Of a stretch of DNA of 64,000 nucleotides, positions 5,911 through 15,502 are shown piece by piece. The position numbers and the translations under genes were made by a program. The DNA is taken from contig BDTR01000030.1 of the NCBI GenBank assembly GCA_002897775.1, positions 1 through 64,000 on the forward strand. Direction: 5' to 3'. The notes under the pieces were generated by a model. The model was not told where the DNA came from. It saw only the letters and a list, made by a program, of their open reading frames with translations, and searched no databases. Origin of the DNA: a bacterium BMS3Bbin08 (GTDB lineage: Bacteria; Nitrospirota; Thermodesulfovibrionia; UBA6902; BMS3Bbin08). Positions within the stretch are counted from its first letter, which is position 1; the number at the start of each line of letters is the position of its first letter.

Positions 5911-6513
5911 TCAGTCAGTCGACTGCTGATCTACAGCCTTTTTGATCTCGGCGCCGACCTCTTCAATCCCCCGGGCAAGAGCACTGCTCAGGCCCCTGGC
6001 AAGCTCAGTAAAGCTACTACTGCCGAGTTTTTCCTTTTTTGAGACAGCGCCTCTGTATAGACCTTCACCTGCAGGGGATGAAAGCTCAACGTCAAAGACA
6101 AGCGTGCCGAACAGCCCGGCCTGATCATCAATCCGTTCAAATTTCCTGAGATATATCTTAAGCTGGTAATTACCTTCCGTCCTGATCCGGGATATCTTAA
6201 CCGCCTTAAAAAGACCCGCTGAAGCAAGGGCTGACTGAAACTCTTTTCCCACCATCCTGTAAGGTGACGCTTCCCATTTCGAATACTTTGATATATTGAG
6301 CCGGTACGGTGAGTTCCTGTACGCGATATACGGCTGTTTAAGATAACGCTCCGCGTCCATATGTATGACAAGAGAGGTTTTGTCGCCCGCGTTGACAGCG
6401 CCACTATCAGCAGCAAGATAAAGGGTATATATCTTTGTTTCGGGCATAGAGGTTGAGCAGGCCGGGAGGGAAAAAACAATTAAAAGGAACAAGACGCCGC
6501 AGGTCCTATTCAT
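5911..6513 (-). CDS. ABC-type transport auxiliary lipoprotein (PqiC/YmbA-like)
   Basis: Lipobox LPACS; position directly after mlaD with a short overlap; PqiC/DUF330-like pattern. Confidence 0.65.
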   Translation of the reverse strand: MNRTCGVLFLLIVFSLPACSTSMPETKIYTLYLAADSGAVNAGDKTSLVIHMDAERYLKQPYIAYRNSPYRLNISKYSKWEASPYRMVGKEFQSALASAGLFKAVKISRIRTEGNYQLKIYLRKFERIDDQAGLFGTLVFDVELSSPAGEGLYRGAVSKKEKLGSSSFTELARGLSSALARGIEEVGAEIKKAVDQQSTD

Positions 6514-7312
6514 TCTCTTTTTTGCCCTCCTTGTAAATAACGCTCCACGGCTTGTTCTTTATCTCCTGAAGTACTTCCTGCAGGTCTTCAGTTGTTTCGG
6601 TCAGGGCGGCCAGCAGCTCTTTGAGGTCATCTTCTACAACTTCATCGACAGAATCCGACGCCTTGCCTACTTTTTCAGCTGTTTCCTCTATGGCCTTAAT
6701 GGTATCGCCTGTCTTACTTATTAACTGTGAAAACTCTTCTTTATTGTCGCCCACGAACCCTCCAAGTTCCTCAAGAACCACAGCCGCGTTTTCGATCATC
6801 TTATGGACGTTCTCTACGGTTTTATCGCTGAAGAGCTTGTCAATATCACCAAGCAGCTTGTCCAGTTTTTTGGATATTTCCTTGGCCTCTATCATGAAAA
6901 GCTTAAAATCAACGCTTTCCACTGACGGGATGGTTGATCCGATCTTAATTTTCTCACCTGCTGTTTTCTCTATGGAAAGCAGGAGATAGGCGTCTCCGAC
7001 AAATCCGACCTGGGTGATAAACGCCCTGGTGCCGTCATACAGCGGCGTGCCCTTTGTCAGGCCTATGGTAATGGTAACCGGCTCTCCGGGTTTCTGCGGG
7101 GGCTCGATGCTCATCACCCGACCCGCCCTGACGCCGCCCAGCCTTACCTGCGAGCCTGGCTCAAGGCCTGCCGCGTTTACGAGCTTCACATAATATGTAT
7201 CGAACTTCTCAAAGAACTGGGTTCCGCCGACAAGGATAGTAAAAGCGCTTAGAAGTATGAGGGATACAACAATTATGCCCCCTGCCTTTATCTCTTCTTT
7301 TAAGTATGCCAA
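6506..7312 (-). CDS. mlaD: MlaD/MCE family lipid-binding protein
   Basis: YVKLVNAAGLEPGSQVRLGGVRAGRVMSI: MCE domain signature; N-terminal TM. Confidence 0.9.
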   Translation of the reverse strand: MAYLKEEIKAGGIIVVSLILLSAFTILVGGTQFFEKFDTYYVKLVNAAGLEPGSQVRLGGVRAGRVMSIEPPQKPGEPVTITIGLTKGTPLYDGTRAFITQVGFVGDAYLLLSIEKTAGEKIKIGSTIPSVESVDFKLFMIEAKEISKKLDKLLGDIDKLFSDKTVENVHKMIENAAVVLEELGGFVGDNKEEFSQLISKTGDTIKAIEETAEKVGKASDSVDEVVEDDLKELLAALTETTEDLQEVLQEIKNKPWSVIYKEGKKENE

Positions 7313-7324
7313 TATTCCTCCGTG

Positions 7325-8113
7325 TTATTCTTCTCCAGCGATGATCCTGAAGTAATCTTCAGGTGAATATACCTCTTTTTCCGCCTTTCTTTCAAGAAAC
7401 ATCCTTATCCTGTCATTATCAGACGCCTTTAATTCATCTATTGTCCCGCTGAATATTACCTCACCAAAATCAAGCATTATAACATGATCGGCTATTGTGA
7501 ACACACTCGGAAGTTCGTGCGTAACAACAATGAACGTCATTTTAAATGCCTGCCTGAGTTTAAGGATAAGCTCGTCAATGCCGGCGGCGGTTATAGGGTC
7601 AAGCCCTGCTGAGGGCTCGTCGAAAAAAAGGAACTCCGGGTCCATGGCCATTGCCCTTGCGATGCCAGCGCGCTTTTTCATACCGCCTGAAAGCTGGGAC
7701 GGGTAATAGTTCTCAAAACCCGAGAGACCAACAAGTTCGAGCTTCATCCGGACCATGATCTGCATGGTGGATTCCTCGAGTTTTGTGTGTTCCCTCATAG
7801 GCAGACTTACGTTGTCCGCCAGAGTCATGGAATTAAGAAGCGCCGCTCCCTGGAACAGGACCCCGATCCTTTTTCTGACCTCGTTGAATTCCTGCTCGCT
7901 CATCCCGGCTATGTCCCGGCCGTTTATTTCTATCTTGCCGCTGGTCGGTTTTAAAAGCCCGATAAGGTGTTTTAACAGGGTGCTCTTGCCGGAGCCGCTG
8001 CCGCCCAGTATGACCGTTGTCTTTCCCCTGGGCATGGCAAAAGATATTTTCTTGAGGACCTGCACGTCCCCGTAATGCGTCACAAGGTTTTTGACTTCTA
8101 TCGCGTTTTCCAT
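7325..8113 (-). CDS. mlaF: MlaF-type ABC transporter ATP-binding protein
   Basis: Walker A GGSGSGKS, signature LSGGM, Walker B FLFFDEPSAGLD. Confidence 0.93.
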   Translation of the reverse strand: MENAIEVKNLVTHYGDVQVLKKISFAMPRGKTTVILGGSGSGKSTLLKHLIGLLKPTSGKIEINGRDIAGMSEQEFNEVRKRIGVLFQGAALLNSMTLADNVSLPMREHTKLEESTMQIMVRMKLELVGLSGFENYYPSQLSGGMKKRAGIARAMAMDPEFLFFDEPSAGLDPITAAGIDELILKLRQAFKMTFIVVTHELPSVFTIADHVIMLDFGEVIFSGTIDELKASDNDRIRMFLERKAEKEVYSPEDYFRIIAGEE

Positions 8114-8115
8114 GG

Positions 8116-8925
8116 CTAAGCAAAAAAGTAAAAAAGAGTGGTAAAGAAAAGATCAATAACGATCACTAAAAAAATGGAGGTGACGACCGACGCCGTTGTG
8201 CGCCTTCCAACCTCCTCGGCGCCCCCGGTTACCTTGAAGCCCTGATACGCGCCCACGATCGTTATAACAACGCCGAACGCCAGCGCCTTTATAAGCCCTG
8301 TAATAATGTCTTTTATGCCCAGTGCCCTGATGGTCTGCTGGAAATAACTATACGGATGTATCTCAAGTTCTGTTATCGACAGAAGAAAACCTCCAAGGAT
8401 GCCTATGAAATCGGCAAACAGCGTAAGGGCCGGGAGCATGATCATCATTGCTATCAGCTTGGGAACAACAAGGAACCTGATGGGATTGATCCCCATGCTC
8501 ACAAGGGCATCGACCTCTTCGGCTGATTTCATCGAGCCTATCTCAGCGGCAAATGCCGAGCCGCTTCTTCCCGCCACTATTATAGCCGTCAATATGGGCG
8601 CAAGCTCCCTTGTCAATGAAACACCCACAAGGTTCGCGACATATATTATCGCGCCCACCCTCTTGAGCTGGTAGGCCGCCTGAAGCGCCAGGATTATACC
8701 TATGAAAAGCGCGATAACAGATACGATCGGAATCGCGTTGTAGCCCACCTTAACCATTTCGGTTATGGTCGCCCTGAGCCTTATTGCCCTGCCTTTAAGC
8801 GGAGAGATGAATGACCAGTAAAAAGTATTGTTGATAAGCCGGGATACGTCGTTTATGTCCTTAAGTATCCGGTTGGTCTTTCTTCCGATGAAACCAAAGA
8901 CGGTCTCAGCTGTTGAAGGCTTCAT
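8116..8925 (-). CDS. mlaE: MlaE-type ABC transporter permease
   Basis: LTRELAPILTAIIVAGRSGSAFAAEIGSMKSAEEVDALVSMGINPIRFLVVPK: classic MlaE. Start at MKPSTAE (8925) preferred over the longer ORF. Confidence 0.93.
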   Translation of the reverse strand: MKPSTAETVFGFIGRKTNRILKDINDVSRLINNTFYWSFISPLKGRAIRLRATITEMVKVGYNAIPIVSVIALFIGIILALQAAYQLKRVGAIIYVANLVGVSLTRELAPILTAIIVAGRSGSAFAAEIGSMKSAEEVDALVSMGINPIRFLVVPKLIAMMIMLPALTLFADFIGILGGFLLSITELEIHPYSYFQQTIRALGIKDIITGLIKALAFGVVITIVGAYQGFKVTGGAEEVGRRTTASVVTSIFLVIVIDLFFTTLFYFFA

Positions 8926-9235
8926 CAATATTCCCGTATATCTCAAAGACCTTGTCAAGCTTGGAAAACCTGAATATCTCCATAATTGCTTCGGACAGTC
9001 CTATCAGTTTCAATCTTCCGCCGTATGATTTCATATTTTTCAGCCCCTCCACAAAGGTCGCTATCCCCGAACTGTCAATATAAGAGACATTACCGAAGTC
9101 AACGTGAAGGGCCCTGGTCTTCTTACTTATCAGACGCATTAATTCCGCCCTCAATTCGGGTGATGAGTACAGGTCAATATCACCTGTTGGTGTTATTATC
9201 GGGCTGCCTTTATAGTCCTTTATATCGATCTTCAT
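8906..9235 (-). CDS. STAS domain protein (anti-sigma factor antagonist / MlaB-like)
   Basis: TPTGDIDLYSSPELR...VDFGNVSYIDSSGIATFVEGL; retains DSSG phospho-acceptor motif. Confidence 0.9.
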   Translation of the reverse strand: MKIDIKDYKGSPIITPTGDIDLYSSPELRAELMRLISKKTRALHVDFGNVSYIDSSGIATFVEGLKNMKSYGGRLKLIGLSEAIMEIFRFSKLDKVFEIYGNIDEAFNS

Positions 9236-9657
9236 TGTACCCCCGCTTTTTTATCCAGGCGCCTGATCAGTCTGAGCCTGTTGCCTTTCTTCTTTGTTTC
9301 ATCGAATGAAACAACATCAAACGCCCTTTTGATAAGATGGACGCCGAGCCCGCCGGGTCTTATATCAGTAAGACTTCTGCCCTCTATGAGTTCAGGCTTT
9401 GCCTTAATGCCGTTATCGTCTATCACTACTTCAAACCCCTTTTTCGTTACACTGAACTTTATATCGATCTTCTGGGTCGTGTCTCCCCTGCACGCGTATT
9501 TTATTACGTTTGAACAGGCTTCATCAACAGCAAGCTTGATGTTCTCTATATCGGTCTCGGGCAAATTGTATATCTTCCCCATGCTGACCGTTACATCCCT
9601 GACCACACACAGGTATCTGGGGTGAGCCGGGATCGTAATGGCTATGGAATCTTTCAT
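9232..9657 (-). CDS. RsbW-like serine-protein kinase (anti-sigma factor, GHKL ATPase)
   Basis: N box DEACSNVIKYA, DDNG motif, GGLGVHLIKRAFD. Confidence 0.9.
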   Translation of the reverse strand: MKDSIAITIPAHPRYLCVVRDVTVSMGKIYNLPETDIENIKLAVDEACSNVIKYACRGDTTQKIDIKFSVTKKGFEVVIDDNGIKAKPELIEGRSLTDIRPGGLGVHLIKRAFDVVSFDETKKKGNRLRLIRRLDKKAGVQ

Positions 9658-9663
9658 CTTATA

Positions 9664-10965
9664 TCAGACCCTGTTTATTTCCACCAGGGTCAGGTCATCA
9701 GCCCTGTCAGTGCCCTGTGAAAAATCATTCACATGATCAATAAGCTTTTTGATGAGCTGTTTTTCAGCCATATGCTTTTCTACGAATTCAACGATTTTGT
9801 CAAAACTGAGCCTTTCGCCTTTTTTGTTTTTTGCGTCAAAAGCGCCGTCAGTCAGCAAGAGCAGCCTGTCGCCTTTTTCAAGCTGTATGCTCGTGCTTGG
9901 GTATTCTACCGCCATGATACCAAGGGGCGGACCTGAATCCACTGTCATTACTTTTACCTCTTCCTGTGTTATCCATAAGAACGGGGGATGCCCGGCATTT
10001 GCAACATTCATCTCTCCGGTTACAGTATCTATTATTGCGTACATGGCCGTGAGAAACATACCCCTTGGCGCGCCTAACAGCTGGGAATTAAGGTTTTTCA
10101 GGGTTTCGTCAGGTGTACTGTTCATACGCGCTATATACCTGAACTCACTTAAAATCTTTGCCATATAAAGCGCGGCTGACACGCCTTTGCCTGATACGTC
10201 GCCTATGAGCACCCCGACCTTACCATCGATATGCTTGATAAAATCATAGATGTCACCGCCGACCTTTTTTGCCGAGATATTGACTGCGGACGCCTTTATG
10301 CTGCCTTTTTTAAATGTCGGGGGTTCTGGAAGAAAGCTTTTCTGAACCACAGCAGCTATCTCAAGTTCCTGTCTCAGCCTCTCCCTTCCAATGGACTCCT
10401 TGTGAAACAGCGCGTTTTCAATGGCAATGGCAATTTGCGAACAGTGGGTCTGGAACAGTTCCACGTCATAATCATCAAAGCTGTCCTTGTTCCTGGGGTT
10501 CAGTATCTCGGCAACTCCTATCAGGCCGCCCCTGCCGATAAGCGGCGCGGCAATAAGACTTTTGGTTGTGAAACCCGTCAGTTTGTCGGCATTCTTATAA
10601 AAACGGCTGTCTGTTGCGGCATCCTTTACAAGCAGGGGCTTCTGCTTTTCCGCGACCCAGCCCGCGATACCCTGGCCCATTTCAAGTGAGATCTTGTCTT
10701 TGAGCTTTTCTGATGTTTCCTCCTCACGGCAAAGGGCAAGCTCAAATTCCAGCCTGTTTGTGTCCTTGTTATAAAAAAGGATCGAACAGGCCTCCGCGTC
10801 CATAATTTTTTTTGCCTTTTCCATTACAAGCTTCATAAGTTCGTTAAAATCAAGGGTCGAGGATATAATAGTGGAAACCTCTATAAGGGTCTTGAGGTCC
10901 TCAACTTTTTTTTCTAATGTTCTGAGATAGTCCCTGGATACAGTGACTTCAGGTCCTTTTGGCAT
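9664..10965 (-). CDS. GAF domain + PP2C (SpoIIE/RsbU-type) serine phosphatase
   Basis: GAF region (ACSILFYNKDTNRLEFE...GIAGWVAEKQKPLLVKDA) then KVGGDIYDFI, IGDVSGKGVSAALYMA, LLLTDGAFDAKN. Confidence 0.92.
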   Translation of the reverse strand: MPKGPEVTVSRDYLRTLEKKVEDLKTLIEVSTIISSTLDFNELMKLVMEKAKKIMDAEACSILFYNKDTNRLEFELALCREEETSEKLKDKISLEMGQGIAGWVAEKQKPLLVKDAATDSRFYKNADKLTGFTTKSLIAAPLIGRGGLIGVAEILNPRNKDSFDDYDVELFQTHCSQIAIAIENALFHKESIGRERLRQELEIAAVVQKSFLPEPPTFKKGSIKASAVNISAKKVGGDIYDFIKHIDGKVGVLIGDVSGKGVSAALYMAKILSEFRYIARMNSTPDETLKNLNSQLLGAPRGMFLTAMYAIIDTVTGEMNVANAGHPPFLWITQEEVKVMTVDSGPPLGIMAVEYPSTSIQLEKGDRLLLLTDGAFDAKNKKGERLSFDKIVEFVEKHMAEKQLIKKLIDHVNDFSQGTDRADDLTLVEINRV

Positions 10966-11002: not shown

Positions 11003-11028
11003 ATATACTATATAATTATATAGTATAT
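11003..11028. promoter_or_regulatory. Perfect 26-bp AT-rich palindrome (candidate operator)
   Basis: ATATACTATATAATTATATAGTATAT equals its own reverse complement; lies between divergent genes starting at 10965(-) and 11165(+). Confidence 0.5.
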
Positions 11029-13105: not shown

Positions 13106-15502
13106 TCACTCCACTCTTATCTTTTCCCCTTTTTCTATCTGCTTTATGCTGTTCAGCCTCTTGACCATCTCCTGAAACGATACGTTCCGGGTATGGCTGA
13201 TGATATTAACCTTTGGGGGCAGGATGCCGCCTTTTACAATGTACTCTTTGTTGCCTTCAGTCACAATGCCTCCAAGCAGGAAGTTGTCGTTTTTAAGCTT
13301 ACCCTTAAAGCCGATTTTCGCGTATTTGTACTGTTCAAACAACTTATATATTCCTGTGCTTAATATGGCAGAGGCAGACCCGGTGCCCATAATAGATATC
13401 TTGTTAATGGCCTCAACACTGATCTTTTGCGTGACTCCTTTTCTCCTGACCGTCTCTATAAGGGCCTCAAAGCGCTCTGCCTGACTGTTAGCTATAACAA
13501 GGTTCCTTACATAACCCTGCATTACTCCTGATATATGACCGAATTCAAATGTATCAGTAAGTCTGCTCAGGTCTATTTCCTTAATCTCAACCGAGGTACT
13601 TATGGAAGGCACGGGCCCGAAGATGCTGTCCACTGACAGGTCGCTTATTCTTATCTCGCCTCCAAAAAGCTCAATTTTGATCTCGCCGTTTGTAAGCAGA
13701 CTGCCCTTTGTGATACTGGCGCTCGGGATCTCGCCTGTCAGGCTGCCGCTGAATTGCGGGATATTAAATGAAGAACTTACCTGCTCAAGGTCAATTCCAT
13801 TCATATCTATTGACATGTGCAGTTCTCTGTCCGGGCTGAGAAGTTTTTCGTAACTTATGTTTTTCAGTTTTATATTGCCCGCAAAAACCGGAATCTGGAT
13901 ATCCTCCTTAAAAACCAGGGTGTTCTGCCAGACAGCCGGATAAAACTCGATTCTTTCTGCCTGCTGTTTTTTCCATGAGATATTACGGATCCTGATAGAG
14001 CCAAAACGCTCGGCCTCTTTTTTTGGGGCAGTAATCTTTGGATAGGAAAGGTCAAGAGGAAGTGACATATTCACCCCCTGAACAGATAAACCTGATTTTT
14101 CAGCAAAAACATCGGCGTCCTTAATATCTATGTTCCCCTGAATATTAAACGCGTCTTTGGTCCCATTGACTGACAGCCTTGCTGATGTTTTACCGCTTAT
14201 TCCCATCTGTGATAGAAAGGGAAATCTGTCCTGAAAGGTCTCCTGCACAAAAAAGGCAAAGGCATCTGCGTTGGCAAGTTCTTTTAAACGCACATCCAGG
14301 TCAATGCGCGGTGTTTTCGAAATACTCCTGATATCGCCTGACGCGCCGATGGTCCCTATATCTGTGATACTAAACTCTGAAGCTGATATCTTAAGTGTGT
14401 CGTTATTTTTGAAATATTTCCCCTGGACAGAACAGCTTATTTCCTTTTCTGTGAAATCACCATAAAAACTGCCCAGCAGGAGTTCAAAGTCAGAGGCATG
14501 GGTCGTGACAGAGAATTCCGTTGTGTTGTCCTTTAATGAGTATTTAAGATCGCCTGATAAGTTCACTGCTATGCCCTCGCCTGCCATAGCGCCGTCAGAA
14601 GAGGAAAAACCTCCGTTGTCTATGATCGCGCTTATTGTGCCGGATATTCCTTCAGACATGTCTACTGAAACAGCGGAGCGAAGAGCGGCTGTCCCTTGCA
14701 GAGCAAAACCTTTATCAGGCAAAATATTAACGAATTTCTTCACCACTTTGTTGAGATCAACTCTGTCAGCAGTGAGTTCAGCCTGCATTTTAAAGGGAAA
14801 CATGCTCAGGCGGCCCTTGATGTCTGCCGCTCCTGCAAGAGGCGAGGATATTGAGATATTTTCGATGTCCAGTTCGAATTTATCAATATCATATTCTCCT
14901 TTAAAAATTATCTGCAGTGCTTCTTTCCTTAATTCAGGCGCTCTGAGATCGCCGCTTGCCAGGACCTCTGCTTTTCTGCCGGGCATCTCTTTAATAGAAA
15001 GCGCAAAGCCGCTGAAACTGACCAACATGCCTGTTTCATTCCGGACAATGACCTCTCCGTCCTCTATCGAGATCTTTTTCAGATAAAAAGGAAGGGAGGG
15101 CCAGCCTTTTTTTATCTCTCCATCTTTACGGCCCTTTAAGGTTATAAACAGTTTTGGTTTTTTTATCTCTATTTCATCAATGTGTTTTTTGAACAAAACA
15201 GAAGGACTCAGGCCGATCTCTGCATAAGGAATAACGACGATCGGTTCACCTTTTTCACTTTCCCTGAGAGTAAGATCTTTTATGGCGATCCTGCCCCATC
15301 CTGTTAAAGATAATGCCCCGATCTCGATCGGCATCTTTGACTGCCTGTTTATGATCTGTTCAGCACGGTCTAAAAAGGAAGGGCTTTTAAAAAGAAAATA
15401 GACAAAAGCAAAAAAAGAAATAAGAAGGATACCACAAAAGTAAAGGATCAAAAGCAAGGCCTTTTTCAGGCCGAGCCTGCTTTTTCCGGTGGTTTTCATC
15501 AA
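13106..15502 (-). CDS. YdbH/AsmA-like intermembrane protein (DUF748/DUF3971-type)
   Basis: N-terminal TM, about 800 aa beta-rich region, adjacent to YdbL-like gene; C-terminal ISVEAINKISIMGTGSAS typical of YdbH-like proteins. Confidence 0.75.
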   Translation of the reverse strand: MMKTTGKSRLGLKKALLLILYFCGILLISFFAFVYFLFKSPSFLDRAEQIINRQSKMPIEIGALSLTGWGRIAIKDLTLRESEKGEPIVVIPYAEIGLSPSVLFKKHIDEIEIKKPKLFITLKGRKDGEIKKGWPSLPFYLKKISIEDGEVIVRNETGMLVSFSGFALSIKEMPGRKAEVLASGDLRAPELRKEALQIIFKGEYDIDKFELDIENISISSPLAGAADIKGRLSMFPFKMQAELTADRVDLNKVVKKFVNILPDKGFALQGTAALRSAVSVDMSEGISGTISAIIDNGGFSSSDGAMAGEGIAVNLSGDLKYSLKDNTTEFSVTTHASDFELLLGSFYGDFTEKEISCSVQGKYFKNNDTLKISASEFSITDIGTIGASGDIRSISKTPRIDLDVRLKELANADAFAFFVQETFQDRFPFLSQMGISGKTSARLSVNGTKDAFNIQGNIDIKDADVFAEKSGLSVQGVNMSLPLDLSYPKITAPKKEAERFGSIRIRNISWKKQQAERIEFYPAVWQNTLVFKEDIQIPVFAGNIKLKNISYEKLLSPDRELHMSIDMNGIDLEQVSSSFNIPQFSGSLTGEIPSASITKGSLLTNGEIKIELFGGEIRISDLSVDSIFGPVPSISTSVEIKEIDLSRLTDTFEFGHISGVMQGYVRNLVIANSQAERFEALIETVRRKGVTQKISVEAINKISIMGTGSASAILSTGIYKLFEQYKYAKIGFKGKLKNDNFLLGGIVTEGNKEYIVKGGILPPKVNIISHTRNVSFQEMVKRLNSIKQIEKGEKIRVE

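Follow-up and report, generated by a model that had tools for sequence, protein, structure and literature searches.

An RsbUVW-like module in a conserved Mpc-like lipid transporter operon, and a probable phosphorylation switch on its STAS subunit

A seven-gene operon that joins a phosphatase, a kinase and a STAS protein to an ATP-binding cassette (ABC) lipid transporter has been identified on the minus strand at positions 10965–5911 of contig BDTR01000030.1 from bacterium BMS3Bbin08; the analyzed stretch, hereinafter the window, comprises 64,000 nucleotides (nt), positions 1 to 64,000 of this contig. The gene order is U-W-S-E-F-D-C, that is, a GAF-PP2C phosphatase (U), an RsbW-type kinase (W), a free STAS protein (S), an MlaE-family permease (E), an MlaF-type ATPase (F), an MCE-domain protein (D), and a PqiC-like lipoprotein (C). 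We estimate, at about two chances in three, that the operon encodes an Mpc-type (MlaFE plus MCE protein plus PqiC-like lipoprotein) lipid transporter, the STAS subunit of which doubles as an RsbV-like switch. The parts of the operon are of known kinds, and the module is RsbUVW-like without a sigma factor. That MlaB is phosphorylated was suggested in 2016 and again in 2020, with no kinase named, and stands as a published open hypothesis (PMC5016091, PMC7367683). The operon offers a candidate kinase and a candidate phosphatase for an MlaB-like STAS protein, and, as both genes lie beside the STAS gene, the phosphorylation idea becomes testable with seven genes from one locus. No description of a kinase–phosphatase–MlaE operon was found in the open-licence PMC literature.

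The open reading frames (ORFs) were located in the sequence, and families were assigned by profile search. U (9664–10965) encodes a SpoIIE/RsbU-type phosphatase of 433 amino acids (aa), matching Pfam SpoIIE at 164 bits and GAF at 72 bits; W (9232–9657), an RsbW/SpoIIAB-type Ser/Thr kinase of the GHKL type, 141 aa (HATPase_c_2, 90.6 bits); and S (8906–9235), a STAS protein of 109 aa (STAS, 70 bits). The transporter genes are E (8116–8925; MlaE, 264 bits; TIGR00056, 246 bits), F (7325–8113), D (6506–7312; MlaD, 47 bits; TIGR00996, 75 bits), and C (5911–6513; ABC_trans_aux, PF03886, 41 bits), the latter with a lipobox, LPAC, read in the translation. D starts with TTG and encodes an MlaD/Mce-type protein of 268 aa, consisting of the MCE domain and a C-terminal segment. 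U and W are separated by 6 nt, as read from the sequence, W and S overlap by 4 nt (ATGA), the E–F gap is 2 nt, and D and C overlap by 8 nt. For E we prefer the ATG start at 8925 to the mechanical ORF start, TTG at 8958, and with this ATG the overlap of S and E is 20 nt. This layout agrees with an initial sequence-only reading, which had described the same seven-ORF run with its coordinates, families and tight spacing; the largest gap, between F and D, is 12 nt.

An MlaE-anchored scan of GTDB genomes yielded 80 loci, 54 of them close, the window included. The order U-W-S-E is observed in 53 of the 54 close loci and spans three phyla, U and W being missing only in L050, and this conserved order rules out a chance neighbourhood of switch and transporter genes. 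Five loci (L042–L045 and L047) keep U-W-S-E-F but show no MCE or lipoprotein gene downstream; in one of them, L044, the gene immediately after that of MlaF is smpB. A close S orthologue is present in 27 of the 246 sampled genomes of the window's phylum, with U-W-S-E in 24 of these and S-E only in the other three, from genus g36. The order recurs in other, deeper Nitrospirota families, where more distant S orthologues (f25 and f32) belong to a U-W-S-E operon in every inspected case, and the full U-W-S-E-F set is found in one of 149 genomes of Acidobacteriota (the phylum of L053) and two of 198 of Desulfobacterota (that of L066). Within the window's own taxonomic order the distribution is patchy: the host genome G000, G004, G017, G045 (with fragmentary U and D), and a decayed copy in G030.

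The sensor part of the phosphatase varies by lineage (GAF, response-regulator receiver REC, or FHA-GAF), while W-S-E-F remains constant. In L185 the phosphatase and the kinase are fused in one protein, joining both activities, as the dual kinase/phosphatase SypE does (PMC8256260). Such recurrence of the arrangement in several lineages suggests that the pump is switched by a phosphate on its own part. If this is true, outer-membrane lipid traffic gains fast post-translational control with interchangeable sensors, and partner switching gains a transporter as an output open to direct testing.

The catalytic residues of the module are intact and near-invariant in relatives, as the sequence-only reading had described for the STAS motif DSSG, the kinase N box and GHKL glycines, and the PP2C Asp motifs. 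In U, residues D238, D241, D256, D373 and D423-D424 are kept in at least 51 aligned orthologues. In W, the N-box residues E46 and N50 are present in 53 of 53 orthologues, and D81, as well as glycines G102-G103-G105, in 52 of 52. Moreover, a single branch separates all 36 operon kinases tested from 44 other kinases (Shimodaira–Hasegawa-like approximate likelihood ratio test, 85). The acceptor motif of S is D54-S55-S56-G57, with S55 conserved in all 54 close loci. According to alignments, RsbV, SpoIIAA and Escherichia coli MlaB have their phosphosite, or the residue equivalent to it, directly after this Asp, so that S55 corresponds to T52 of MlaB. The AlphaFold2 model of S (mean predicted local distance difference test score 95.7) has a helix at 55–70, which places S55 at the N-terminus of helix alpha-2. 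Hence a PP2C phosphatase, a GHKL kinase and a STAS D-S-x-G motif at the start of alpha-2, the features of RsbU-RsbW-RsbV and SpoIIE-SpoIIAB-SpoIIAA, are all found here. Unlike those systems, the module lacks a sigma factor of the SigB/F/G type as its output, and its genes are constantly linked to those of a lipid ABC transporter.

The host genome provides no other partners for these proteins. It is of the Nitrospirota type, 2.7 megabases long and 95% complete, and the nearest loci, L001, L002 and L009, come from genomes G017, G004 and G045 of the window's own order; the possibility that the contig was misbinned and comes from another phylum is thus rejected. There is no sigma factor gene among the seven genes of the operon, in line with the sequence-only reading, and no protein of the genome scores as a SigB/F/G-type sigma factor over the TIGR02980 cut-off, the sole matches being three RpoD-like proteins of 491–553 aa; the role of W as an anti-sigma factor has been rejected on this ground. 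W is also the sole RsbW-type kinase of the genome at E ≤ 1e-6. An MlaE profile scan gave three good matches and one weak match, and both other clear MlaE systems, C57 and C61, lack STAS. The genome has two STAS matches in all, S and C42. The latter, a 98-aa protein with the motif DMTC, is encoded near a histidine kinase–regulator pair and an rpoD-like gene; being degenerate, without the acceptor motif and near rpoD, it has been rejected as a second MlaB. A separate canonical MlaB, which would have spoken against the dual role of S, is therefore not found in the genome. The other outcomes that the sequence-only reading had named as refuting, a lack of conserved co-occurrence in relatives and a sigma-factor pathway, did not turn up either. 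We also observe, in an MlaFED operon of this genome that has no STAS gene (L111:6557–7975), a 472-aa MlaD-like protein with a C-terminus resembling an outer-membrane beta-barrel, which recalls the trans-envelope MlaD of Veillonella.

The transporter, judged by its gene content, is best called Mpc-like (an Mla–Pqi chimera) rather than canonical Mla. The sequence-only reading had named it Mla-type, which holds for MlaE, MlaF and the MCE-domain protein, the set also found in E. coli, and does not hold for the rest of the operon. E. coli has MlaC and MlaA, and the operon has a PqiC-like lipoprotein in their place; a profile search found no MlaC among the seven genes, and the MlaC of the host genome is located in the C61 operon. 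The Brucella abortus Mpc system (MpcEFDA) likewise combines MlaF and MlaE with a PqiC-like lipoprotein and an MCE protein that exceeds MlaD in length, in an operon without MlaC, and has a permease-tied STAS domain (PMC12436622). Brucella, however, has its STAS as a fused part of MpcE, and neither a kinase nor a phosphatase has been reported there, whereas here a separate RsbV-like STAS protein is encoded together with both enzymes, its gene overlapping that of MlaE (PMC12436622). The E. coli MlaFEDB complex shares with the window operon the ABC permease and ATPase, the MCE protein, a free STAS protein, the MlaF handshake, and the correspondence of T52 to S55, but its MlaB has no known kinase or phosphatase (PMC5016091, PMC7367683, PMC7784689).

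New evidence for S as a subunit of the transporter comes from MlaF. E. coli MlaF grips MlaB via M127, K128 and T114 of its helical subdomain, while the C-terminal handshake (Y261, L265, L266) reaches MlaB from the other subunit (PMC7367683, PMC7784689). T52 of MlaB is central at this interface; T52E weakens MlaF binding (PMC7367683), and the ATPase activity is lost in T52A (PMC5016091), both of which speak for the importance of the acceptor position. The MlaF of the window has T110, M123-K124 (equivalent to M127-K128 of E. coli), and the handshake motif PEDYFRII. With a search pattern that was loosened once, as YLxxL variants had escaped its stricter initial form, the handshake motif is found in 54 of 55 MlaFs of U-W-S-E-F operons and in four of five of kinase-less free-STAS operons (58/60 for free STAS overall), is rare in fused STAS-MlaE systems (1/15), and is absent from STAS-less MlaFs (0/34). 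The position of M127 is occupied by M in 48 of 48 U-W-S-E-F operons, by L or I in five of five S-E-F operons, and by E, Q, R or K in 31 of 35 STAS-less MlaFs. Thus, MlaF has the MlaB-clasping feature where a separate STAS gene adjoins, which supports, at the level of sequence, the assignment of S to the transporter; what was tested is the motif itself, and a contact between S and the handshake may be inferred from it. The second line is that in sister systems STAS forms the N-terminal part of MlaE, and Brucella MpcE likewise carries a fused STAS (PMC12436622). The MlaE tree groups the window MlaE with STAS-linked MlaEs. The MlaF tree divides MlaFs of U-W-S-E-F operons into two groups; still, as all sampled STAS-linked MlaEs, except that of E. 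coli, stay together in the MlaE tree, capture of the module by two transporter lineages is not claimed.

These data also bear on a variant in which W is the effector: free W would inhibit MlaF or MlaE, and unphosphorylated S would relieve the inhibition by binding W, by analogy with anti-sigma factors. An identical gene set with the same catalytic residues would then be conserved, and an output protein is held by canonical RsbW (PMC8256260). We nevertheless regard it as quite improbable, since the handshake remains unexplained, and so do the STAS-MlaE fusions and the S-E-F operons without a kinase, in which the transporter partner that persists is STAS.

In the mechanism that we favor, with S as both subunit and switch, the transporter would move lipid from the inner to the outer membrane. 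Unphosphorylated S would dock, like MlaB, on the helical subdomain and the C-terminal handshake of MlaF via its alpha-2 face and would keep MlaF in an active complex. W would phosphorylate S55, and phospho-S would be unable to bind F, as the equivalent of S55 lies at the center of the MlaF-binding face in the MlaB structure; transport would then halt. U, under control of its N-terminal sensor, would dephosphorylate S and allow transport to resume, the predicted sign being that active U corresponds to active transport. With W and F in competition for one face of S, the output would be post-translational instead of a sigma factor.

Several observations weigh against this mechanism. The best matches of S by both sequence and fold are RsbV and SpoIIAA: the top Protein Data Bank (PDB) hit of the S model is the RsbV chain of an RsbV–RsbW complex, MlaB comes only at rank 49–50, and S reaches 20.7 bits with the mlaB_1 model, the cut-off of which is 90, which leaves it outside the MlaB family. 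Moreover, E. coli MlaB is a minimal STAS, while S adds a C-terminal strand and helix of the SpoIIAA type. S is therefore nearer to RsbV than to MlaB, which corrects the sequence-only reading; the proposal of that reading, that this single STAS protein may be both MlaB-like subunit and RsbV-like switch, is otherwise supported, among other things by the MlaF handshake. The decayed operon of G030 (L116:7748–10137), in which the phosphatase is in pieces and the MlaE, MlaF and MCE genes are missing, still keeps an intact kinase, an intact STAS and the lipoprotein gene. In addition, S-MlaE pairs with DSSG and no adjacent U, W or MlaF are found in L050, L146, L147, L150, L193 and L199; genomes with such orphan pairs (genus g36) hold other U-W-S systems elsewhere (L200–L203). 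A phylogenetically controlled test of the handshake correlation itself found only two independent contrasts in the MlaF tree and has no statistical power.

The resemblance of S to RsbV and the retention of W and S without E-F-D in L116 would be expected if U-W-S acted on another target (an enzyme, a sigma factor not of the SigB type, or the operon's own transcription), with S only sequestering W and the transporter genes merely co-regulated. Known partner switches often have unknown or transcriptional targets; in SypE-SypA and BtrU-BtrW-BtrV, switches with an unknown or post-transcriptional output, a STAS output protein is similarly placed under linked kinase and phosphatase activities, but the targets are unknown or concern biofilm formation or type III secretion, and an ABC transporter target is unreported (PMC8256260). 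This explanation seems unlikely, although it is the strongest of the competitors: the host genome lacks a SigB/F/G-type sigma factor, the linkage to MlaE-MlaF persists across phyla, even where D and C are not adjacent, and neither the MlaB-clasping handshake on MlaF nor the STAS-MlaE fusions of sister systems agree with it.

Data on systems without a linked kinase are mixed. Acidobacterial S-E-F operons of this kind keep the acceptor Ser (DSAG), and a kinase search in one such genome detected no W anywhere; hence, loss of the acceptor is not automatic. In E. coli, T52A abolishes the ATPase activity (PMC5016091), yet MlaB stays bound, which misfits a simple release upon phosphorylation. Both facts, likewise unfavorable to the switch, suit a purely structural, MlaB-like S, in which the acceptor Ser would be required to couple the ATPase, like T52, and W would phosphorylate it weakly or without physiological importance. 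We consider this the least probable of the alternatives, with very little room for it, as the fused STAS-MlaE proteins of the same clade mostly work without Ser or Thr at this position (S/T in 2 of 17 systems without a linked kinase, mostly D or G), and U and W with full catalytic sets stand beside S in tens of genomes. In the fused proteins of L066–L071, L074, L076 and L080 the acceptor position is occupied by Asp (DDFG or DDYG), resembling a fixed phosphomimic.

U-W-S-E operons form a paraphyletic group in the MlaE tree, with both the fused and the kinase-less clades branching from within it, which favors loss of the kinase and phosphatase over their repeated gain. This is tentative, because the tree is midpoint-rooted and has a long E. 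coli branch. It is conceivable, though we would not bet on it, that kinase/phosphatase control is ancestral in STAS-linked MCE transporters, the kinase-less S-E-F operons and the STAS-MlaE fusions of the Mpc architecture being later losses, followed by loss of Ser in the fused STAS. If so, a partner-switching kinase phosphorylating a subunit of an ABC transporter would be an old and widespread gate on outer-membrane lipid flow.

Some minor features were observed around the operon. A 26-nt perfect AT-rich palindrome is located at window positions 11003–11028, 37 nt upstream of U; it has no counterpart in relatives and has been rejected as a conserved operator. A promoter-like stretch (TTGAAA ... 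AATCTGTTATCCAATAAG) upstream of U is present in L002, L003, L005, L007, L011, L013, L018 and L030 and finishes a few bases ahead of the called U start. In L012 (5303–7912), L014 (1510–4119) and L058 (5240–7879) the gene immediately preceding U encodes a PAS-GAF-HD protein, the domains of which were checked in L012. A second, distinct W-S pair is encoded on the opposite strand beside the U-W-S-E-F operon in L195 (6185–7020) and L049 (13222–14057). Approximately 2 kilobases upstream of the window operon and on its strand, positions 13106–15502 encode a 798-aa AsmA/DUF748-like protein, possibly a second intermembrane lipid-transfer protein.

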